From: Candidatus Gastranaerophilales bacterium
Lineage (GTDB): Bacteria > Cyanobacteriota > Vampirovibrionia > Gastranaerophilales > Gastranaerophilaceae
DNA: 64,000 nt
Reading direction: 5' to 3'
NCBI GenBank assembly: GCA_944326915.1
Contig: CALVFT010000001.1
Location: 186,001 to 250,000, forward strand
A program made the position numbers and the translations under genes. A model generated the notes under the pieces. It was not told where the DNA came from and ran no database searches. It saw only the letters and a list, made by a program, of their open reading frames with translations. Of the stretch, positions 12,574 to 22,685 are shown piece after piece; the first letter of the stretch is position 1; each line of letters starts with the position of its first letter.

Positions 12574-13413
12574 TTAGTATGGATAATCTTTTGGAAATTC
12601 CCAACCATTCGTTATAACATCATAGGCGCAGGTAAAACCTAAATCACCCTTTTTACAGTCCGATGTCCCGTCGTAATATGGCTGCAACTTATCATCTTTT
12701 AGCATAAAATAGTAGATATCTCGTCCTACCTGATTTGGTTTTTTAGCACCATTAACATCTATGATATAAAGTATCTTGATATTTTTGTGCCATAAATTCC
12801 AATATACTCCACCACCAGAATTTTCTGCAAATAACAATGCCAATGACGCACCAGAACTCAAATTATATTGATAAGTATAATGATATAATCCTAAATAACC
12901 ACCATACCAGACATTACCCTGAGTACCCTGCCCATTTAACATTTTAAAACTGGTCGCTGGCTTCAAACTAATACAATCAGTAACACCGGCAACACCTGTA
13001 TGTCCACAGTATCTTCCAACCATGTAACTAGCATATGAGTCAGCTATTTTAGTATTTTTACTATTGTCTTTACCTTGGTCAGTTATATAACTAAATAAAA
13101 TCCAATCTTTTGGTTCTCCATTTTCTTCAACAACCCTCAAATGAGCATTTTGGACAGTTGCATAAGCCTTTTTTAATGCAGCTATATATGCCTGATTTTG
13201 AAACTTACTTATTACTGAAGGCAAAGTCAATGCTGCTACAACCCCAATAACTCCTAAAGTAATTAAAACTTCTGCTAAAGTAAATCCATTTTTCTTTTCG
13301 AAGTGATGTTTCATATCACTAGTATAACATTTTTCTAATTTTTTACAAGAGAAAGGAAGATATTCAATTAAGCTTTGAAAAGTGCCCCCCCCCCCGAAAT
13401 TCGTGATTTGCAT
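12574..13413 (-). CDS. Pseudopilin A with poly-G leader, in-frame (11 G)
   Basis: A type IV pilin-like protein. From the internal ATG at 13314 it is 246 aa: a short basic leader KHHFEKKNG, then FTLAEVLITLGVIGVVAALT (residues 11-30), the class III signal with Glu at +5, cleaved and methylated by prepilin peptidase and then anchored in the inner membrane. The globular part has paired Cys (103/114, 220/229), a DVNG motif at 186-189 with KPNQVGRD after it, and ends NGWEFPKDYPY. In this locus the frame is also open upstream to an ATG at 13413 with AAAGGAG 7 nt before it; this adds 33 residues including four Gly encoded by 11 G. Two products are therefore possible: a long form from the ribosome binding site, and a short form from the leaderless promoter before 13314. 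Which is native is unknown. Confidence 0.85.
   Translation of the reverse strand: MQITNFGGGGTFQSLIEYLPFSCKKLEKCYTSDMKHHFEKKNGFTLAEVLITLGVIGVVAALTLPSVISKFQNQAYIAALKKAYATVQNAHLRVVEENGEPKDWILFSYITDQGKDNSKNTKIADSYASYMVGRYCGHTGVAGVTDCISLKPATSFKMLNGQGTQGNVWYGGYLGLYHYTYQYNLSSGASLALLFAENSGGGVYWNLWHKNIKILYIIDVNGAKKPNQVGRDIYYFMLKDDKLQPYYDGTSDCKKGDLGFTCAYDVITNGWEFPKDYPY
13321..13326 (-). promoter_or_regulatory. Internal promoter of pseudopilin A (TTGTAA / TATACT)
   Basis: TTGTAA at 13343-13348, a 16-bp spacer, TATACT at 13321-13326, then 6 nt (AGTGAT) to the ATG at 13314. The layout predicts a leaderless mRNA for the short form. Both boxes are conserved at the two sister loci. Confidence 0.55.
13385..13395 (-). 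repeat. Poly-G tract, 11 G (reading frame open)
   Basis: Eleven consecutive C on the plus strand, so 11 G on the coding strand, starting 18 nt after the upstream ATG at 13413. With 11 G the frame continues into the pilin; 10 or 12 G would stop it within a few codons (TAA or TGA). Confidence 0.9.
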
Positions 13414-13451
13414 ATTTATACTCCTTTCTTTTGCTATTCTTTTACGTACTT

Positions 13452-13480
13452 ATTATAAAAGATTTTTTCAATTTTAGCAA
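13452..13480 (-). promoter_or_regulatory. Promoter of pseudopilin A leader
   Basis: TTGCTA (13475-13480), 17-bp spacer, TATAAT (13452-13457), then about 38 nt to the upstream ATG with AAAGGAG at 13421-13427. The same promoter stands before pseudopilins B, C and D. Confidence 0.75.
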
Positions 13481-13571
13481 ATAAAATCACAATTATTTTA
13501 GTAAAATATTAAAAAAGTATTGAAATACATGCGAAAATAATATAAAATGGTTATTATAGAAAGAGGAAGAT

Positions 13572-13811
13572 ATGCCAAAGGTCAATATAACTGTATGTAT
13601 GGGAAGCTCTTGTTTTGCACGTGGTAATGAACGTAATCTTGAATTTATTGAAGCATATATTCAAGCTCACGACTTACAAGCTAATGTAAATTTAGCTGGG
13701 TCTCGTTGTGAAAATAAATGCGCAAGAGGGCCTGTTGTCATTGTCAACGACGTTGAATACAACAACGTTGATGAAAGAAAGTTGGAAGAAATACTTTCAA
13801 AACTTATTTAA
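13572..13811 (+). CDS. Thioredoxin-like [2Fe-2S] ferredoxin (NuoE C-terminal type)
   Basis: 79 aa. CMGSSC at residues 9-14 and CENKC at 46-50 are the four cluster ligands of the thioredoxin-like 2Fe-2S fold found at the C-terminus of NuoE/HymA and in stand-alone ferredoxins. It should be a small cytoplasmic electron carrier or partner of the adjacent hydrogenase-like protein, 30 bp downstream. AGAGGAAGAT precedes the ATG. It heads a plus-strand operon of four genes ending at 17031, in which a second copy of this type closes the operon; the two differ in sequence and are not a recent duplication. Confidence 0.9.
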   Translation: MPKVNITVCMGSSCFARGNERNLEFIEAYIQAHDLQANVNLAGSRCENKCARGPVVIVNDVEYNNVDERKLEEILSKLI

Positions 13812-13841
13812 TTATCGTTTTCATATATTTAGGAGTCATTA

Positions 13842-15569
13842 ATGAATAATCAATATCCGGTCTACACTCTGACAAATGAATGTCACGACTGTTATAAATG
13901 CATAAGAAACTGTCCAGTAAAAGCTATTAAAATAGAAAACGGTCATGCATCAGTTATTCCGGAACGTTGCGTAGCTTGCGGTAATTGTGTAAAAAGTTGC
14001 CCTACAAACGCAAAACGAGTTCGTAATGATATCGCCAAAGCTAAAAACTTAATTTTAGCTAAAAAAGAGGTGTATGTTTCACTTGCACCTTCTTGGAGCG
14101 GAGTATTTGAACATTCTCCTAAAAAAATGATTACTATTTTGAAAAAGCTTGGCTTCAAAGAAGTTTCAGAAACAGCTCTTGGAGCTCAAGAAGTATCTAT
14201 CAAAACTGCAGAGATACTAAATAGTGCCGAAAAAGGTTTGTTTATTTCAAGTGCCTGCCCTGTTGTTGTAGACTTTATCAAACATTACAGACCTGAGTTT
14301 ATTAAATGTATTACACCAATAGGCTCACCTGCAATGACTCATGCGAAAATGCTTAGAGAAAAATACGGCAACGACATATCAATAGTATTTATTGGGCCTT
14401 GCATAGCTAAGAAAAATGAAACTTCATATACAGATTTAATCGATGTAGCTTTGACGTTTGAAGAATTAAAAATGTGGATTCACGATGAAAACATCGACAT
14501 AGCAGAAATTCAAACAAACCCTGAAAACAAATTCGTTCCATATGATGCTTTTGAAGGTGCTTTGTATCCTATTGATGGCGGAATGAATGAAACTATAAAA
14601 AGAATTGGTGTTAAAGATGGCATTCAATTAATAGATGTATGTGGCTTTCAAGCATTTGAAAATGCATTGAATAATCTTAACCCTGATAAAGTTGAAAAAA
14701 CAATATTTGTGGAAGCTCTTGCTTGTGATGGAGGTTGTATTGCAGGTCCTTGTATTTCAACAACAAAAGCAAGCATATCAGTTGTCTCAGACATTTTATC
14801 TAAAACAAAAAAACGAGATTATATCCCCAAAAAAGCATCAACAACTGTTGATTATGAACTGAAACCTCAAAAAGTTATCAACAAAGAATATCCTTTAGAA
14901 GAAATTCTAAAGACACTTAAAAAAATAGGTAAACATACAGTAGATGATGAACTTAACTGTGGCGGATGCGGATACGCAACTTGTCGAGATCTTGCAAAAG
15001 CACTATTAGATGGTGATGCAGAACCGTCAATGTGTGTTTCTTATATGAGAAAAATTGCAATGAGAAAAGCTGCTGCTATGATTCGATGCATGCCTGCTGC
15101 TGTTGTTATGGTGGATAACAATTTGAATATTCTGGAAGCAAACGACAGCTTTATGAAAATGTTTACCGGTGATATGTATGAAGTCTTTGCAGCACGCCCT
15201 GACGGACTTGCAGGAGCTGCAATAGACAGAATTGTAGATTTTGCAGACATTTTTAGGACAATTCTAAAAACCGGAAAAGATTTACACAAAGAGCACTATC
15301 ATATTAAAAATCGTCTATATGATATTTCCGCATTTACAATCGAAGAAAATGAAATTGTAGGAGCTGTTATCACAGACGTAACTTCTTCAGAAACTAACAG
15401 AGAAAAAATCTCTCAAAAAGCTCAAGAAGTTATTTCAAAAAATATTTCAATAGTACAAGAAATTGCTTGCCTTTTAGGGGAACATATGGTTGAGACAGAA
15501 ACACTTCTAAGCTCAATCGCAAATGATTATGATGACAATGACAACAACGAAACAGAAAATAATAAATAA
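13842..15569 (+). CDS. Sensory-type [FeFe]-hydrogenase with PAS domain (HydS-like)
   Basis: 575 aa. Domains: two 4Fe-4S motifs at residues 14-24 and 43-53 (CHDCYKCIRNC, CVACGNCVKSC); a hydrogenase H-domain at ~75-310; a Cys-rich Fe-S domain at 373-398 (CGGCGYATC...C); a PAS domain at ~410-515. H-cluster ligands are kept: C139 (SSACP), C187 (GPCIAKK), C295 and C299 (ACDGGC). The proton-relay cysteine that precedes C139 in catalytic enzymes (TSCCP) is alanine here, and the partner loop GPC replaces the usual MPC/SPC. This combination is known for putative H2-sensing hydrogenases (groups C/D), which have low turnover. The next gene is a SpoIIE-type phosphatase, the usual output partner. I infer H2 or redox sensing rather than metabolism. 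GGAGTC precedes the ATG. Confidence 0.9.
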   Translation: MNNQYPVYTLTNECHDCYKCIRNCPVKAIKIENGHASVIPERCVACGNCVKSCPTNAKRVRNDIAKAKNLILAKKEVYVSLAPSWSGVFEHSPKKMITILKKLGFKEVSETALGAQEVSIKTAEILNSAEKGLFISSACPVVVDFIKHYRPEFIKCITPIGSPAMTHAKMLREKYGNDISIVFIGPCIAKKNETSYTDLIDVALTFEELKMWIHDENIDIAEIQTNPENKFVPYDAFEGALYPIDGGMNETIKRIGVKDGIQLIDVCGFQAFENALNNLNPDKVEKTIFVEALACDGGCIAGPCISTTKASISVVSDILSKTKKRDYIPKKASTTVDYELKPQKVINKEYPLEEILKTLKKIGKHTVDDELNCGGCGYATCRDLAKALLDGDAEPSMCVSYMRKIAMRKAAAMIRCMPAAVVMVDNNLNILEANDSFMKMFTGDMYEVFAARPDGLAGAAIDRIVDFADIFRTILKTGKDLHKEHYHIKNRLYDISAFTIEENEIVGAVITDVTSSETNREKISQKAQEVISKNISIVQEIACLLGEHMVETETLLSSIANDYDDNDNNETENNK

Positions 15570-15578
15570 AGGTAACTA

Positions 15579-16742
15579 ATGTTCATAGACATCGACTGCA
15601 GTCAAATGAAAAAATATAATCAAAATGCATACGGAGATTATTTTGTATCAAAAAGATATCCGGATGAAGCAATGTTGATTGCGGTTCTATCAGATGGACT
15701 AGGAAGCGGAATAAAGGCAAATATTCTATCCTGTATGACTGCTACAATGCTTTTAAGATTTATTGAAGGTGGTCAAATTCCTATTAGAAAAGCTGCTGAA
15801 ATTATAATGAATTCACTTCCGGTATGCCAAATAAGAAAAATAAGCTACTCAACATTTTCTGCTATCAAAGTTGATGATGACGGGCACGCTAAAATTGTAG
15901 AAGAAGGAAACCCTGAATTTATATGGATTAGAAATAACGAAGTTATACAACCTGACTACGATACAATTCAATCTAAGACTTTTAAAAATAGAAAACTTCG
16001 TCTATACAAAATTAATCTAAAACTCGGAGACAGAGTGATATTCTGCTCAGATGGTGTAACTCAATCAGGACTTGGAAGCGGAAAACTAAAACTTGGTCTG
16101 AGAAGAGAAGGTCTTATCACTTTGGTAAAAGATAAACTTGCAGAACATCCTGATATATCAAGTACAGAACTTTCACAATATATAGTTAATCAAGCAAGAA
16201 ATATCGAAACAGACAGACTCGCAAAAGATGATATCTCAGCCTGTGTTCTATACTTCAGAGAACCAAGAGAAGCTCTGATATTTACAGGTCCTCCATTCCA
16301 TCAAGAAAAAGATGCAGAATATGCACAGATATTTAATAAATTCAAAGGTAAAAAAGCTATTTGTGGAGGAACTACTGCAAATCTTTTATCAAGAGAATTA
16401 AACAAACCAATTACAATGGATACAACAATCAGTATAGGCAAATTACCTGCCTGCTCTTATATGGATGGCGTAGATTTGGTTACTGAAGGTGTCTTGACCC
16501 TTACCAAAGCATTAGAATACTTGGAAAGCGGACTCCCGGATATTGACAACGCCGCAGTAAAGTTGGTAAAATTCTTATTGGATAGTGATTGCATAACTTT
16601 CATGGTCGGGGCAAAACTTAATCAAGCACATTACGATCCCGCACTTCCAGTAGAAATAGAAATCAGAAAAAACATCATAAAAAAAATTACAACAGTCCTT
16701 CAGGACAAATATTTCAAAAAAGTTAATTTACAGTATATGTGA
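15579..16742 (+). CDS. SpoIIE/PP2C-type serine phosphatase
   Basis: 387 aa. The N-terminal ~220 residues are a PP2C-like SpoIIE domain: acidic metal ligands in LSDGLGSGIKA (~residues 36-48), EEGNPEFIWI and FCSDGVTQSG (~154-163), and DDISACVLYF near 215. Such enzymes dephosphorylate anti-anti-sigma or similar serine-phosphorylated proteins. The C-terminal ~160 residues (FTGPPFHQEKD onwards) are a separate domain of unknown role that is also found with this phosphatase in hydrogenase operons. It starts 9 nt after the sensory hydrogenase, so the two are cotranslated and likely form the sensor-output pair. The target protein is not in the window. Confidence 0.88.
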   Translation: MFIDIDCSQMKKYNQNAYGDYFVSKRYPDEAMLIAVLSDGLGSGIKANILSCMTATMLLRFIEGGQIPIRKAAEIIMNSLPVCQIRKISYSTFSAIKVDDDGHAKIVEEGNPEFIWIRNNEVIQPDYDTIQSKTFKNRKLRLYKINLKLGDRVIFCSDGVTQSGLGSGKLKLGLRREGLITLVKDKLAEHPDISSTELSQYIVNQARNIETDRLAKDDISACVLYFREPREALIFTGPPFHQEKDAEYAQIFNKFKGKKAICGGTTANLLSRELNKPITMDTTISIGKLPACSYMDGVDLVTEGVLTLTKALEYLESGLPDIDNAAVKLVKFLLDSDCITFMVGAKLNQAHYDPALPVEIEIRKNIIKKITTVLQDKYFKKVNLQYM

Positions 16743-16773
16743 GGATTTCCCTCTCAGGATAGGAAGGTAAAAA

Positions 16774-17031
16774 ATGGACAAAAAAATTAGTGTTAAAGTT
16801 TGTTTAGGAACAACATGTTTTGTAATGGGCTCTTCAAATTTGCAAGAGTTAATTGAAACAGTACCTGCAAAATACGGTGACAGAGTGGAAGTTTCAGGCG
16901 TTCCTTGTCTTGGACTTTGTTCTATTGATTGGGAATTTTCAAAAGCTCCTTATGTCAAAGTCGACGATGAAGTAATCAAAGAAGCTACCGTTGAAAAAGT
17001 TCTAAAAGCAATCGATGAAAAACTAAAATAA
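16774..17031 (+). CDS. Thioredoxin-like [2Fe-2S] ferredoxin, second copy
   Basis: 85 aa with CLGTTC at residues 10-15 and CLGLC at 45-49, the four ligands of the NuoE-like thioredoxin-fold 2Fe-2S centre. AGGAAGGT precedes the ATG, 31 nt after the phosphatase stop. It is the last gene of the sensory operon and may pass electrons between a donor and the sensor or the catalytic hydrogenase at 19.1 kb. A terminator follows. Confidence 0.88.
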   Translation: MDKKISVKVCLGTTCFVMGSSNLQELIETVPAKYGDRVEVSGVPCLGLCSIDWEFSKAPYVKVDDEVIKEATVEKVLKAIDEKLK

Positions 17032-17041
17032 AATTTTAATA

Positions 17042-17068
17042 AAAAAAGAGGTCAATGACCTCTTTTTT
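17042..17068. terminator. Bidirectional terminator, pilin-type copy 2
   Basis: The same AAAAAAGAGGTCA stem as at 12544, now between the ferredoxin gene and pseudopilin B (convergent). Confidence 0.9.
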
Positions 17069-17069
17069 G

Positions 17070-17852
17070 TTACTTATAAATCTCAGATAGCATTGTAGAT
17101 GTCGATACTCCACCTTTCTCTGGATCCATACAACCACCACCTGAAAGGACTAGCGGGGATTTTATACTGGACTTTGTTTGAAATGAAAATAAATCATATC
17201 CCCATTTATTTGGACCTTTCATGCCATTGACATCTATTGCAAACAATGTTGGAAATGAAAGATATGGTATAAATATAATGCCGTTTTTTAATACATAGAT
17301 AGTTAAATTATTACGAATTTGACTTTCATTAAACGAATAACAACCTAAAGCCAAAGAAGCAGCTTCTTCGTCACTCATGCTACCATCGCTATTTGATTGT
17401 TTAACAGTATCAAAACCCTTATAGGCTGGGATACATCCATCACGATATGCATTGCCTTTACAAGTCTTTATTATTTGTAAATTATTTTTTATACTCTCCA
17501 TAAAAGCACTACAATCAGCCCTTGGGCCATTGATATCACTCGGAATAGGACTTCCATCTTCTAAAGTAGAATGCTTACAAACTCCATACTCATCTCTTTC
17601 TATACATACAGTTTTATAAGGATTGCTCAACCAGTAATAGCATTCAGGTTTTGAGCCAAAATCTACTTCTGCTTTACGCCATGCCTGCTGCATCAAAGAA
17701 TATGCTACTTTAAACTGTTCTTTTAGAACTTGTTTTTGGTAATTTGCGATTAATGGAGGTAAAGTAAGTGCGGCAACGACACCGATAACGCCTAAAGTAA
17801 TTAAAACTTCCGCTAAAGTAAATCCATTTTTCTTTTCGAAGTGATGTTTCAT
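17070..17852 (-). CDS. Pseudopilin B (leader out of frame, 10 G)
   Basis: 260 aa from the ATG at 17852. Leader KHHFEKKNG is identical to pseudopilin A, followed by FTLAEVLITLGVIGVVAALT, the prepilin peptidase site and membrane helix; then the sequence diverges fully. The globular part has several Cys (CYYW, CIERDEYGVC, CSAF, CKGNAYRDGC) and the family motif DVNGMKGPNKWGYD. Upstream, the poly-G leader ORF has 10 G and stops before this ATG, so only the short form can be made in this state, from TATACT placed 6 nt before the ATG. The gene lies inside the plus-strand hydrogenase region but on the opposite strand, with a terminator at each end of its transcription unit. Confidence 0.85.
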   Translation of the reverse strand: MKHHFEKKNGFTLAEVLITLGVIGVVAALTLPPLIANYQKQVLKEQFKVAYSLMQQAWRKAEVDFGSKPECYYWLSNPYKTVCIERDEYGVCKHSTLEDGSPIPSDINGPRADCSAFMESIKNNLQIIKTCKGNAYRDGCIPAYKGFDTVKQSNSDGSMSDEEAASLALGCYSFNESQIRNNLTIYVLKNGIIFIPYLSFPTLFAIDVNGMKGPNKWGYDLFSFQTKSSIKSPLVLSGGGCMDPEKGGVSTSTMLSEIYK

Positions 17853-17905
17853 ATCACTAGTATAACATTTTTCTAATTTTTTACAAGAGAAAGGAAGATA
17901 TTCAA

Positions 17906-17950
17906 TTAAGCTTTGAAAAGTGCCCCCCCCCCGAAATTCGAATTTGTCAT
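17906..17950 (-). CDS. Short leader ORF before pseudopilin B (OFF state)
   Basis: ATG at 17950 with AAAGG 9 nt upstream gives MTNSNFGGGALFKA and TAA. One more G would fuse it in frame to pseudopilin B through 33 codons. Whether the 14-residue peptide itself matters is unknown. Confidence 0.5.
   Translation of the reverse strand: MTNSNFGGGALFKA
17923..17932 (-). repeat. Poly-G tract, 10 G (reading frame closed)
   Basis: Ten C on the plus strand. It starts 18 nt after the upstream ATG, as in copy A, but is one base shorter, so the frame stops at TAA 13 nt after the tract. Confidence 0.9.
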
Positions 17951-18039
17951 AATTACAATCCTTTCTTTTGCTATTCTTTTACAAACTTATTATAAAAGAT
18001 TTTCAAAGTTTTAGCAAGATTAGTTATATATAGTTAAAC

Positions 18040-18066
18040 AAAAAAGAGGTCATTGACCTCTTTTTT
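18040..18066. terminator. Terminator of pseudopilin D, pilin-type copy 3
   Basis: AAAAAAGAGGTCA / TGACCTCTTTTTT stem, differing only in the loop from the copies at 12544 and 17042. It separates pseudopilin D from the promoter of pseudopilin B on the same strand. Confidence 0.88.
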
Positions 18067-18089
18067 ATTAATCCTATATTATTATAAGA

Positions 18090-18797
18090 CTAATAATCCA
18101 TATTCCATCCATTACGCATTAAGTAAAATAAAGGCCATCCTCTAAAATCATCACCATATGAATCACAACCTCCATGTGGATTACCTCCAATAGTACGCCC
18201 GTTTGAACATAATGTAACGTAGAATAAGTCTCTACCAGCAGTATTAGGCTGTTTTTCGCCATTCACATCCATAAATACCATAATAGCATTATAACCAATA
18301 GAAAAATAATATATCATCCCATCCGCTGTATAAAAACCTGTTACTGGGCCAAAAGTATAAGATTCCTGAGAAATTATATTACGGCTAGAAGATGTCCTTA
18401 ATTTACCATTTTCAATATATCCATGGGAATAATATTCTACACCACATTCATTAGCTTTACAGATTTTAACAACATTTAAATATTTAGGAATTATTTCTTC
18501 AAATTTTGATGGGTTACCGTAATTATCCTCACATCCATTTGCGACACCTCCATTCGCCCAGTCTGGTGTACAAATTAAACCTGAAAAAAAATATGACTCT
18601 GCAAAACCTCCCACCCCATCATCTGCTGCAATTTTACTCATCATATTTGTCAAAGTACTGTATGCTTTTTTAGCTCCAGTAACATAAGTCTGTTTTTGAT
18701 AATTTCCTATAACAGATGGTAAAGTAAGTGCTGCTACAACACCGATAATTCCTAATGTAATTAAAACCTCTGCTAAGGTAAAACCTTTTTTATTCAT
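18090..18797 (-). CDS. Pseudopilin D (no poly-G)
   Basis: 235 aa from the ATG at 18797 (GAGAGGGG 5-12 nt upstream). Short leader NKKG, then FTLAEVLITLGIIGVVAALT. The globular part contains CTPDWANGGVANGC, CKANEC, the motif DVNGEKQPNTAGRD and the ending RNGWNMDY that resembles pseudopilins A and C. The upstream region shares the TTGCTA/TATAAT promoter (18963-18968 and 18940-18945) and AAAGGAG with the poly-G loci, but the G tract is absent. A longer frame would need a TTG at 18887; it encodes LLPCKKL, a trace of the CKKL in the poly-G leader, suggesting this locus once had the same leader and lost part of it. Confidence 0.85.
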   Translation of the reverse strand: MNKKGFTLAEVLITLGIIGVVAALTLPSVIGNYQKQTYVTGAKKAYSTLTNMMSKIAADDGVGGFAESYFFSGLICTPDWANGGVANGCEDNYGNPSKFEEIIPKYLNVVKICKANECGVEYYSHGYIENGKLRTSSSRNIISQESYTFGPVTGFYTADGMIYYFSIGYNAIMVFMDVNGEKQPNTAGRDLFYVTLCSNGRTIGGNPHGGCDSYGDDFRGWPLFYLMRNGWNMDY

Positions 18798-18939
18798 ATA
18801 ACCCCTCTCTACATTATACTTATAAACATGACTATTATACACACTACTTAATTTTTTGCAAGGAAGCAAAATTATATTATAATTCAATTCTCGATTTTAA
18901 TTATTGCACTCCTTTATTTTACTATTCTTTTATAAACTC

Positions 18940-18968
18940 ATTATAAAAGATTTTCAAAGTTTTAGCAA
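18940..18968 (-). promoter_or_regulatory. Promoter of pseudopilin D
   Basis: TTGCTA (18963-18968), 17-bp spacer, TATAAT (18940-18945), matching the promoters of pseudopilins A, B and C in both boxes and spacing. The 5' leader is about 135 nt and is otherwise unlike theirs. Confidence 0.7.
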
Positions 18969-19087
18969 GTTATCTAAAAATTTCTTTCATTTTATCTTCT
19001 AACAAATTGTATTTTTGTACAAACTTTGAAAAATTTTCATGTTCATGCCATAATATCTTTATGTGGAATAGCAAAGAGGTGTAGAAA

Positions 19088-20554
19088 ATGGCAATTAATA
19101 CTAATACCCCTAAACAGACATCACACTTGAAAAGAGAGATTTTAGTAAGATTGATTAAAGCCTTTTTAAGTGACAATTTTGAAGAAAATACAAGACTCAT
19201 TCCTTATGATATGCGACCAAAAGGAAGTGATGTACCATACAGATGCTGTATTTATAAAGAAAGAGCAATTCTTAGAGACAGAACTATTGCAGGACTAGGA
19301 TACGCTATTGAAGAAGCAGAAGATAGCACGCCTTTATCTGAAATAGCGAAAAATGCTTTAGATAGAACACAACCTGAAGAGCATCCTCTTACAGTGCTTA
19401 CTACAGCTTGTAAGGGTTGCGTACCTTCAAGAGTTTATGTAACAGATTTGTGCCAAGGCTGTGTTGCAAGACCTTGTGAAAGCACTTGTAAATTTGGTGC
19501 AATTACAGTTAAAAACGGTAAGTCAGTAATCGACCCTGCAAAATGTAAAAATTGCGGAATGTGCGTTCAAGTATGCCCTTACCAAGCTATACAAAAAATA
19601 ATCGTTCCTTGTGAAAATGCTTGCCCTGTGGGAGCAATTGCAAAAGACGAAGAAGGTCATGCAAAAATTGATTTTGACAAATGTATATCTTGCGGCAAAT
19701 GTGCATCAGCTTGTCCGTTCGGTGCGGTACATGAAAAAAGTCAAATTATTGACGTACTAAAAGAAATTAAAGCAGGTAAAAAAGTTATAGCAATGATAGC
19801 TCCTGCTATGGTAGGTCAACTTCCTTGCACTCCAAAACAACTAAAGACTGCAATTCAAAAACTAGGTTTTGCAGATGTATATGAAGTAGCTCAAGGTGCT
19901 GATGTTACTACTAAGAATGAAGCAAAAGAATTTGTAGAAAGATTGGAAAACGGTGCAGAATTTATGACAACATCTTGTTGTGCAGGATACAATGAACTTG
20001 TTGACAAGCATATTCCTGAAATGAAACCGTTCCGTTCTGACACAAAAACTCCTATGTATTATACAGCTGAAATCGTTAAAAAAGAACATCCTGATGCTAT
20101 CACTGTATTCTTTAGCCCTTGTGTTGCTAAAAAACGTGAAGCACTAAACGATTCTCACGTTGATTACGTACTTAACTACGAAGAAATAGGTGCCTGGATG
20201 GTAGCGTTAAACATTCAAGTTGCAGAATGTGATGAAAGTGAATTTGCAGCAGAAAGTTCTGCTGAAGGTAGAAATTTCTGTGTAACAGGTGGTGTTGCAA
20301 AAGCTGTACAAGCACTTTTACCGGAAGAAATTCCTGCTCATCCTGTAGTTATAGATGGACTTACAAAACAATCAGTAAGAGATTTGAAAAAATACGCTAA
20401 AAATGGCGTATGTGACTTAGGAAATCTTATTGAAATTATGGCTTGTACAGGAGGATGCTTGGGCGGTAATTCTACTGTTAACGCATTTAAACCTGCCTTA
20501 AAACAAGTTACAGGCTATGTAAACGAAAGCAAGTCAATTAAAGACCAAGTATAA
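19088..20554 (+). CDS. hydA: Monomeric [FeFe] hydrogenase
   Basis: 488 aa. N-terminal ~105 residues are a family-specific domain; then Cys-rich ferredoxin-like repeats at ~108-210 (CKGC, CVARPCESTC, CKNCGMCVQVC, CENAC, CISCGKCASAC), enough for three or more 4Fe-4S clusters; then the H-domain. All catalytic residues are present: TTSCCAG with C297 (proton relay) and C298, SPCVAKK with C345, MACTGGC with C453 and C457. The architecture and the TSCCAGY form of motif 1 suggest the group B monomeric hydrogenases of gut anaerobes, which evolve H2 from reduced ferredoxin. GAGGTG precedes the ATG. Maturation needs HydE, HydF and HydG, of which only hydF is in the window. It has its own transcription unit between two pseudopilin genes. 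Confidence 0.94.
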   Translation: MAINTNTPKQTSHLKREILVRLIKAFLSDNFEENTRLIPYDMRPKGSDVPYRCCIYKERAILRDRTIAGLGYAIEEAEDSTPLSEIAKNALDRTQPEEHPLTVLTTACKGCVPSRVYVTDLCQGCVARPCESTCKFGAITVKNGKSVIDPAKCKNCGMCVQVCPYQAIQKIIVPCENACPVGAIAKDEEGHAKIDFDKCISCGKCASACPFGAVHEKSQIIDVLKEIKAGKKVIAMIAPAMVGQLPCTPKQLKTAIQKLGFADVYEVAQGADVTTKNEAKEFVERLENGAEFMTTSCCAGYNELVDKHIPEMKPFRSDTKTPMYYTAEIVKKEHPDAITVFFSPCVAKKREALNDSHVDYVLNYEEIGAWMVALNIQVAECDESEFAAESSAEGRNFCVTGGVAKAVQALLPEEIPAHPVVIDGLTKQSVRDLKKYAKNGVCDLGNLIEIMACTGGCLGGNSTVNAFKPALKQVTGYVNESKSIKDQV

Positions 20555-20647: not shown

Positions 20648-21340
20648 CTATAAATCACCCCAAGGGTAATCATCTTTAATTTCCCAACCGTTTTGCATAA
20701 TCACATAAGCACAGCCCCAACCTATCCAATTAGTAAAGCCATTCGGATTACTCAAAGTTCTTGTACAAGGTTTCATTCCATACAAATCATCTTTTACAGG
20801 TATTAATCCTTCTTGTTTATTAATTCTGTATATAAAAGCATCCCTCCCAGCTCTATTTGGACCTTTTACTCCATTTACATCCAGTTGAATCTCTACTTGA
20901 GAATCGCTAGCATCAGCTCTTACAGATAATCCAACACCATTACTTAATATTACTGAGTATGCTATAGAATCCCCTGATGTAAATATCTTGCTACACGCAC
21001 CTTTTCTTGGTTCAGTATGTTTTATACCGCAATAATATCCGACATTTAAAAATTCATCAAGATATGTAAAATAAAAATTTTTGGCATCATTCCCCCAATC
21101 ATTAGGATTATCAGGACTGCTATACTCCCAAGAATTAGGATCCCCATTTTTTGCAATAGAATGATCAACCGCATTTGCGAGTATAGAATAAGCTTGCTTT
21201 AACTGAACAACAGTCTGTTTTTTTTGATAATTAGCTATCACAGAAGGTAAAGTCAGAGCTGCAACAACTCCAATCACGCCTAAAGTAATCAGCACTTCAG
21301 ATAATGTGAATCCGCTTTTCTTTCCCAAGTGATATTTCAT
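20648..21340 (-). CDS. Pseudopilin C (leader out of frame, 10 G)
   Basis: 230 aa from the ATG at 21340. Leader KYHLGKKSG, then FTLSEVLITLGVIGVVAALT, a class III prepilin signal with Glu +5. The globular part carries CGIKH, CSKIF, CTRTL, the family motif DVNGVKGPNRAGRD and the ending QNGWEIKDDYPWGDL, close to pseudopilin A. The gene has the shared leader with TATACT 6 nt before the ATG. The upstream ATG at 21441 is followed by 10 G, so its frame closes early. Another frame happens to be open through the tract from a TTG at 21505, but that TTG is the -35 box, so it is not a real start. It is divergent from dxr. Confidence 0.85.
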   Translation of the reverse strand: MKYHLGKKSGFTLSEVLITLGVIGVVAALTLPSVIANYQKKQTVVQLKQAYSILANAVDHSIAKNGDPNSWEYSSPDNPNDWGNDAKNFYFTYLDEFLNVGYYCGIKHTEPRKGACSKIFTSGDSIAYSVILSNGVGLSVRADASDSQVEIQLDVNGVKGPNRAGRDAFIYRINKQEGLIPVKDDLYGMKPCTRTLSNPNGFTNWIGWGCAYVIMQNGWEIKDDYPWGDL

Positions 21341-21393
21341 ATCACTAGTATAACATTTTTCTAATTTTTTACAAGAGAAAGGAGGATGTTCTA

Positions 21394-21441
21394 TTAAGCT
21401 TTGAAAAGTGCCCCCCCCCCGAAATTCACAGTTCTTAACAT
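21394..21441 (-). CDS. Short leader ORF before pseudopilin C (OFF state)
   Basis: ATG at 21441 with AAAGGAG 4 nt upstream gives MLRTVNFGGGALFKA, then TAA TAG. With 11 G it would join pseudopilin C in frame. Confidence 0.5.
   Translation of the reverse strand: MLRTVNFGGGALFKA
21411..21420 (-). repeat. Poly-G tract, 10 G (reading frame closed)
   Basis: Ten C on the plus strand, beginning 21 nt after the upstream ATG. As in copy B, one additional G would open the frame. Confidence 0.9.
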
Positions 21442-21521
21442 TGTACTCCTTTCTTTTGCTATTCTTTTCCACGTTTATTATAAAAGATTTTCTGAATTTT
21501 AGCAAGATTATATATTTGTCA

Positions 21522-21527
21522 TATAAT
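21522..21527 (+). promoter_or_regulatory. -10 TATAAT of dxr
   Basis: TATAAT, then 6 nt (TAAAAT), then the dxr ATG at 21534. Leaderless layout; the -35 region would overlap the start of the divergent pseudopilin C promoter. Confidence 0.55.
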
Positions 21528-21533
21528 TAAAAT

Positions 21534-22685
21534 ATGGAAAGAAATAAGAAGAGAAAAATAAGTATAATCGGTTCCACAGGATCTATCGGAACCCAAGCTT
21601 TGGAAGTAATTGAAAAGTTACAAGATAAATTTGAAATAATAGCACTCGCAGGTGGCAAAAATTCAGAACTTTTAAAACAACAGGCAGAAAAATTTAAACC
21701 AAAATATATATCAAGTTCTTGTGAACCTGAAAAATTGTTAGGAAACCACAATGCCAAAATTCTCCAAGGAGAAGAAGGACTTGAGCAAATATGCTCAAAC
21801 CGTGAAAATGATATTATTTTGATGGCATGTTCAGGGCGCATCGGGCTTAAACCAACGCTTACCGCTATAAAAAACGGTATAGATATTGCTCTTGCAAACA
21901 AAGAAACACTTGTTATGGCAGGTGATATTGTTATGCGTGAAGCAAAAAAACAAGATGTAAAGATTATCCCTGTAGATAGCGAACATTGTGCTATCCACCA
22001 ATGCATAAAGGATATCAACCAAGTTGATAAGCTTATTATTACGGCATCAGGTGGACCTTTTCTACACAAAAGTATTGAAGATATGAAAAAAGCTACCGTA
22101 GAACAAGCTCTAGCTCATCCACGTTGGAATATGGGTAAAAAAATTACTGTAGATAGTGCTACATTGATGAACAAAGGGCTTGAAATTATAGAGGCTCACC
22201 ATTTATTCAATATAGATTATGATAACATTGATGTTGTTGTACACCCTCAAAGTATTGTACACTCAGCTATTGAATACAAAGATGGTAGCGTAATTGCACA
22301 ATTAGGATTGCCAAGTATGCATATTCCAATCCAGTATGCGATTACGTATCCTGAAAGATTTGAGGGAATAAAATCCAAAAGCTTCAGCTTTGCTGAAACT
22401 GCAAGACTAGACTTTATAGCTCCTGATTTTGAAAAATTCCCAACAGTAAAACTAGCATACCAAGCAGGTAGAACAGGTGGAACTTCAACAGTTTGTCTTA
22501 ATGCAGCAAATGAAGAAGCTGTATTTGCATTTTTGGATGGAAAAATTAAACTTTATAACATCTACGAAATTACTAAAAAAATGATGGATGAACATACAGT
22601 TATTCAAAATCCTACAATTGATGAAATCTTTGAAGTCGACAAAAAGGTTCGAGAATTAACTAGAGCTTATATTCAAAAAATGTAA
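21534..22685 (+). CDS. dxr: 1-deoxy-D-xylulose 5-phosphate reductoisomerase
   Basis: 383 aa, normal length. It converts DXP to MEP with NADPH in the non-mevalonate isoprenoid pathway. NADPH-binding GSTGSIGTQALEV is at residues 13-25; the metal-binding acidic residues lie in PVDSEHCA (~residue 147) and the flexible loop SGGPF follows; NKGLEIIEAH is at ~215. Start ATG at 21534; no Shine-Dalgarno, leaderless promoter. It is alone, convergent with priA 13 bp away. Confidence 0.97.
   Translation: MERNKKRKISIIGSTGSIGTQALEVIEKLQDKFEIIALAGGKNSELLKQQAEKFKPKYISSSCEPEKLLGNHNAKILQGEEGLEQICSNRENDIILMACSGRIGLKPTLTAIKNGIDIALANKETLVMAGDIVMREAKKQDVKIIPVDSEHCAIHQCIKDINQVDKLIITASGGPFLHKSIEDMKKATVEQALAHPRWNMGKKITVDSATLMNKGLEIIEAHHLFNIDYDNIDVVVHPQSIVHSAIEYKDGSVIAQLGLPSMHIPIQYAITYPERFEGIKSKSFSFAETARLDFIAPDFEKFPTVKLAYQAGRTGGTSTVCLNAANEEAVFAFLDGKIKLYNIYEITKKMMDEHTVIQNPTIDEIFEVDKKVRELTRAYIQKM

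Follow-up and report, generated by a model that had tools for sequence, protein, structure and literature searches.

Phase variation through poly-G tracts is a well-known mechanism. Neisseria genomes carry an average of 15-19 poly-G tracts, located over varied genes, and the contingency loci of this type include pilC (PMC5953494). In pilC the tract is located within the part of the gene that encodes the signal peptide. The closest demonstrated case to the loci described here is the sortase-pilus switch of Bifidobacterium breve, in which an upstream ORF that has a Shine-Dalgarno (SD) sequence and is strongly expressed becomes fused to the body of the pilin by G-tract slippage; the assembled strain is in the OFF form (PMC9187656). 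In the pilE/pilS system of Neisseria, variation arises by copying of silent cassettes into a single expression locus.

We analysed a stretch of 64,000 nt (the window) from a Candidatus Gastranaerophilales bacterium, together with its genome and related genomes, in which poly-G tracts lie between start codons and pilin genes. In a taxonomic check a cyanobacterial 16S primer site had no match in any genome, and within the analysis the Gastranaerophilales/Melainabacteria-like placement is an inference. These loci resemble the poly-G loci of Neisseria in that the lengths of G tracts would switch pilus-related genes, in that the OFF alleles are intact, and in that the tract lies, as in pilC, in a leader that would likewise be cleaved. 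They differ in number, with 30 tracts in the genome studied here and up to 117 in relatives, and in their targets. In the dissected genomes most tracts are found on one paralogous pilin family with class III leaders, and each subunit gene would itself be switched. The layout is like that of B. breve, which differs in having sortase-dependent pili, two loci in strain UCC2003, a Sec signal and no large paralogous repertoire. Slippage was measured in B. breve (PMC9187656), whereas it is only inferred for the present loci. With pilE/pilS they share a large repertoire of pilin variants that have common 5' parts and divergent bodies. Antigenic variation of the pilE/pilS type was considered and rejected: each window locus has its own promoter, SD and ATG, and the other dissected copies have an SD and an ATG.

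The lineage, scale and architecture seen here appear to be undescribed, the new elements being the lineage itself, the clustering of tens of switch loci in a single pilin family, the position of the tract in the leader and possibly an attenuator form. An earlier note, made without database searches, had known of no description of such a switch in this lineage, and we found none in the open-access literature searched (subscription journals were not covered).

Three poly-G tracts separate start codons from pilin frames

The window contains only three G or C runs of at least 8 nt, one at each of the loci termed A, B and C (Table 1). Matches to an 8-mer run number 10, compared with a mean of 0.03 in shuffled windows. 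Each run is preceded by an ATG, at a distance of 18 nt (A and B) or 21 nt (C) with the ATG counted, and each ATG by an AAAGGA(G)-type SD and a TTGCTA-17-TATAAT promoter. At these loci a run of 11 G (or of 8 or 14) is the sole length that fuses the SD-ATG frame to the pilin. With its 11 G, the frame of locus A enters the pilin to give a product of 279 aa. A run of 10 G leads to a TAA that starts 15 nt past the run, and 12 G to a TGA soon after it.

The earlier note had reported runs of 11, 10 and 10 G, each behind a promoter, ribosome binding site and ATG, and had read locus A as ON and loci B and C as OFF in this assembly. All of these claims held, exact positions included, as did the predicted stops at TAA and TGA, except that the TAA had been placed about 13 nt after the run. 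The coordinates given in that note span locus A alone, whereas the phenomenon is genome-wide.

Table 1. Features of the three tract loci and of a comparison gene, in window coordinates
Feature	Position	Strand	Basis or remark
Locus A G11 tract (ON length)	13385..13395	-	sequence, run scan, frame analysis
Locus B G10 tract (OFF), ATG 17948-17950	17923..17932	-	sequence, run scan, frame analysis
Locus C G10 tract (OFF), ATG 21439-21441	21411..21420	-	sequence, run scan, frame analysis
Locus A promoter P1, TTGCTA-17-TATAAT	13452..13480	-	consensus scan
Locus B promoter P1, TTGCTA-17-TATAAT	17989..18017	-	consensus scan
Locus C promoter P1, TTGCTA-17-TATAAT	21477..21505	-	consensus scan
Locus A Shine-Dalgarno AAAGGAG	13421..13427	-	sequence
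Locus A start codon ATG	13411-13413	-	18 nt (ATG counted) before run
Locus A prepilin leader, 43 codons MQITNFGGGGTFQSLIEYLPFSCKKLEKCYTSDMKHHFEKKNG, pilin frame (ON)	13285..13413	-	frame analysis
Locus A internal promoter-like block P2, TTGTAA-16-TGTTATACT, 6 nt before internal ATG 13312-13314	13321..13348	-	
Locus B internal promoter-like block P2	17859..17886	-	consensus scan
Locus C internal promoter-like block P2	21347..21374	-	consensus scan
Locus A mature pilin, FTLAEV..., PF07963	12577..13284	-	domain search, model
Locus B mature pilin, intact frame, cut off from upstream ATG	17073..17822	-	
Locus C mature pilin, intact frame, disconnected from upstream ATG	20651..21310	-	
Tract-free neighbouring pilin MNKKGFTLAEV..., comparison gene	18090..18815	-	

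Loci A, B and C (compared within 12577-13560, 17073-18100 and 20651-21590) have 5' modules that are ~75-100% identical over ~250 nt, whereas their bodies are at background identity. From sequence alone, this pattern is inferred to reflect exchange or homogenisation of the switch module.

The plus strand at 13572-20554 carries a cluster that, judged by eye only, is [FeFe]-hydrogenase-like, with ORFs resembling a 2Fe-2S thioredoxin, an Fe-S hydrogenase and SpoIIE. Pilin B and the tract-free pilin sit within this cluster on the opposite strand.

The tract-linked proteins are type IV pilin-like

Four proteins of the window match the N-terminal methylation motif PF07963, with its G/F cleavage site, at 24.3-29.0 bits against a cut-off of 21.2; this motif is the sole Pfam domain found. 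The genome encodes one prepilin peptidase (PF06750, E 3.9e-36). An AlphaFold model of the mature locus A protein (pLDDT 85.6) predicts a helix at residues 3-55, followed by strands and a beta-rich C-terminal part. A profile built from 75 relatives matches PilA, geopilin and GspG in the PDB through the N-terminus only, and a Foldseek search with the model of mature A returned no significant match to the whole fold. Assignment as the GspG major pseudopilin was tried and rejected, the TIGR01710 score of 19.9 bits falling short of the cut-off of 88.85. From their sequence the proteins are type IV pilin-like, with their subtype unassigned.

The arrangement recurs across the genome and the family

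The window's own genome (termed G000; 1.67 Mb in 21 contigs) has 30 runs of at least 8 G, and 27 of these lie between an SD-associated start and a pilin N-terminus. The distance from start to tract is mostly 24 nt, compared with the 18 or 21 nt of the window loci. From tract to pilin, counted to the residue before F, it is mostly 97 or 100 nt; one locus has 73 nt owing to an in-frame deletion of 27 nt. This second distance is 1 mod 3 with L087 as the sole exception, and the length that joins the frames is 8, 11 or 14 in 26 of the 27 loci, L074 being the exception. Tracts of 10 G predominate (n=16), with lengths of 9 (n=2), 11 (n=5) and 12 (n=4) making up the remainder. Four loci are ON, namely locus A of the window, L071, L076 and L090; the predicted OFF product is ~13-26 residues long.

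Genomes of the same family carry 0-117 runs of at least 8 G (median 33), and those of other families of the order 0-10 (median 2). Within the family, the number of tracts follows the number of pilin matches (Spearman 0.89). Of 383 genomes of the order, 129 contain the pattern GGAG-ATG-tract, frequently in tens of copies (overlapping matches counted); a reversed version of the pattern, used as a control, gives counts close to zero in most of the 383, with exceptions that include G057, G103 and G005.

We dissected 218 tract-pilin loci in ten genomes. Flanking DNA, leader sequence and leader length vary between genera, and the architecture is constant: an SD, an ATG, a gap of ~20-30 nt, the tract, a variable leader and a G/F-type cleavage site. 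At some loci the coding strand carries a run of C, which gives Pro in place of Gly. The DNA surrounding the tract in G000, G001, G002 and G008 (e.g. TTTC[Gn]CA..T...AAGCTT) is similar whether the coding strand has G or C. As the flanks are alike in both orientations, a DNA element, and not the peptide alone, seems to be conserved.

Two IMG/VR contigs also show the SD-ATG-tract layout upstream of a pilin, with C10 at 1263-1272 of L290 and G9 at 148-156 of L291. In a further genome, G016, many G10 runs (loci L197-L224) belong to another repeated context, in which TAAACCGCTCA... follows the run and no pilin is adjacent.

The joined frame is under selection and most loci are OFF as assembled

Across the dissected genomes other than G012, which is treated separately below, the pilin frame shows 3 stops in 5485 codons between tract and pilin, compared with 395 in 5304 and 570 in 5423 codons of the other two frames. 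Leaders behind G tracts in G001 have 15 distinct lengths, every one of them 1 mod 3, and the C-tract locus of that genome that does contain stops is the same locus that is out of phase. Because stops are so few in the pilin frame despite widely differing leaders, we conclude that the joined frame is translated and selected. No internal ATG is present in the leader at 42 of 45 loci in G001, 21 of 26 in G009 and 36 of 44 in G011, and the SD-ATG ahead of the tract is therefore the natural start in these genomes. An internal start as the general rule was accordingly rejected for G001, G009 and G011, and could not be fully rejected for G000, G002 and G008.

Only 31 of 196 open loci (16%) are ON in the assemblies, and 84% are OFF. 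This excess of OFF alleles departs from the one third ON expected of random frames (p = 5e-8, without correction for paralogy); paralogues are not independent, so the p-values overstate the case. The median distance to the stop in OFF frames is 1-4 codons, compared with 7.5-13 in shuffles. The OFF alleles are otherwise intact, with pilin bodies mostly of at least 200 aa. The inference of phase variation made in the earlier note is thus supported, and the frame logic and the family-wide nature of the switch hold well beyond the window.

Tract lengths differ between closely related paralogues

The comparison was limited to one genome per species, without reads, and paralogues therefore stand in for isolates. 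Among 26 within-genome pairs of loci whose flanks are at least 85% identical over 150 nt, tract length differs in 12. One such pair has G10 and G12 with 5 flank differences in 150 nt, and another G12 and G9 with 8 flank differences. Divergence in length between paralogues is thus shown; variation between cells rests on these near-identical flanks with unequal runs, and not on reads, which qualifies the inference of a switch. The bodies of such pairs are often only ~50% identical, near the level of unrelated sequences in that alignment. A shared 5' module, from promoter to N-terminal helix, with unshared bodies points to exchange of the 5' module, or to its retention with fast divergence of the body.

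Comparison of orthologues among G000, G001 and G002 was hampered by bodies that are too divergent and yielded one good pair, in which tract lengths are equal. A search for strain-level data in viral contigs returned two contigs with tracts, both from other species, and a single phage match that is unrelated, and a search of genome contigs gave only a chance match to Cytophagales. Genes for MutS and MutL are present in the genome, so hypermutability of the tracts receives no help from a loss of mismatch repair.

Two alternative explanations bear on these differences. The first is that they are errors of sequencing or assembly, and that the true tracts are all of one (ON) length. In its favour, the assemblies are of the metagenome type, some technologies are error-prone at homopolymers, and a modal length is common within a genome (10 in G000, G001 and G008). 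Against it, lengths of 9-12 occur inside one genome, mostly OFF lengths are found in dissected genomes of very unlike quality (~10 to 230 contigs), and paralogues with near-identical flanks are 1-3 bases apart. We consider this explanation very unlikely, with the caveat that some assemblies may miscount homopolymers.

The second is that the tracts are fixed and are read through transcriptional slippage or ribosomal frameshifting, which would give constant low pilin synthesis from all loci and no heritable ON and OFF states. Polymerases can slip on G runs of about 10, and in several genomes the modal length is one base off the ON length. However, a fixed signal would be expected to keep one length, whereas lengths vary among near-identical paralogues and some loci are exactly ON. 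Recoding is therefore judged unlikely.

An internal promoter-like block may make OFF leaky

Leaders in the window's genus include a promoter-like block, P2, which stands six nt ahead of an ATG at each window locus (Table 1). It is possible, though less likely than leader joining, that in this genus P2 drives pilin expression from a (leaderless) start at MKHHFEKKNG/FTLAEV. The tract frame would then add only a second, variable layer, and OFF loci would still be expressed. Several observations favour this view. Every third codon position of TGT-TAT-A(C/A)T-AGT-GAT is T in 26 loci of G000 and G002, and codon position 2 in the P2 core shifts from C to A, which fits a -10 box and is the opposite of coding constraint. 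MKHHFEKKNG would make a canonical short leader. Most loci of G000 have P2 with an ATG, and about half of those in G008 have P2 followed by an SD and ATG, making tract-independent pilin possible. Against this view, no internal start has an SD at 26 of the 27 loci in G000, an internal ATG is missing altogether from 6, and internal ATGs are rare in G001, as counted above. Moreover, P2 alone would not need an extension that is kept open and in frame.

The 'CYTSDM' stretch encoded here is constrained as DNA, and its protein conservation was therefore rejected as proof of coding, being ruled out by the third-position constraint. P2 and the GTGAT...ATCAC palindrome that follows it occur in the fetched DNA almost exclusively at tract loci. 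An RNA hairpin over P2 has more paired cells than slid controls, with covariation barely above that of shuffles and not above all slides. In the G008 loci with an SD after P2, that SD is near or in a predicted hairpin, which is inferred to form only in a transcript from further upstream. Leader joining through the tract remains our preferred reading, with the second qualification that a DNA-conserved, promoter-like block within the leader could make OFF leaky at the window loci.

A possible second form in G012

In G012, the post-tract frames mostly fail to reach the pilin. At all 17 loci examined (within L168-L192 and L283-L286), position 40 after the tract marks the start of a CCTCC, for which pairing with GGAGG, the SD of the pilin ~90-100 nt downstream, is predicted. 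Translation of the leader would end 11 nt after a tract of 11 G and, in most loci, 18 nt after one of 10 G. With 12 G it would end 61-94 nt after the tract, beyond the CCTCC, in 15 of 17 loci; the deviants are L182 and L188, the latter because of the start codon chosen by the script. The tracts in the assembly are G11 in 15 loci and G12 in two.

These features raise the possibility of a translational attenuator set by slippage, in which the frame of the leader could control an anti-SD. This proposal is predicted from paralogous leaders and has no experimental support. In attenuators of the ermC kind, translation of a leader ORF exposes or hides the SD of the downstream gene. The input in G012 would be tract length, and hence frame, and not a ribosome stalled by a drug.

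A model for pilin phase variation

The likely explanation of these loci, strongly supported by the results above, is translational phase variation of a large pilin repertoire through poly-G or poly-C tracts, in which length change between cells and expression are both inferred. The loci would be stand-alone genes for type IV pilins or pseudopilins, each translated from an SD-ATG that precedes, by 18-34 nt, a poly-G (at some loci poly-C) tract placed within the disposable prepilin leader. Replication slippage by one base would join start and pilin (ON) or separate them (OFF). OFF frames would run into early stops and yield a short peptide, and ON cells would make a prepilin with a leader of ~20-55 residues, to be cut off by prepilin peptidase, a step that is itself inferred. 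With the leader removed, the frame alone would count, however many Gly or Pro codons the tract contributes, and the mature protein would be unaltered. Given ~30 loci here and a tract number that reaches ~117 in relatives, many combinations of expressed pilins would coexist in a population, most loci being OFF in most cells. Display of the pilins on the surface, and a role in varying adhesion or in evading phage, predators or immunity, are likewise inferences.

A bolder reading, which we judge slightly more likely to be wrong than right, is that members of one uncultured gut-type family switch tens to about a hundred pilin loci by slippage, and do so in at least two mechanically distinct ways, leader joining and the attenuator proposed for G012.

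If the model is correct, these genomes would hold some of the largest simple-repeat phase-variation repertoires reported, in an uncultured lineage, and centred on one surface-protein family, with the tract in a peptide that is cut away and a bias toward OFF. Metagenome reads that already exist would allow an immediate test. The G012 variant would represent a new coupling of slippage to expression. Contingency loci would then extend from pathogens to a probably non-pathogenic lineage, and strong pressure on pilin display, whether from phage, immunity, predators or adhesion, would be suggested.
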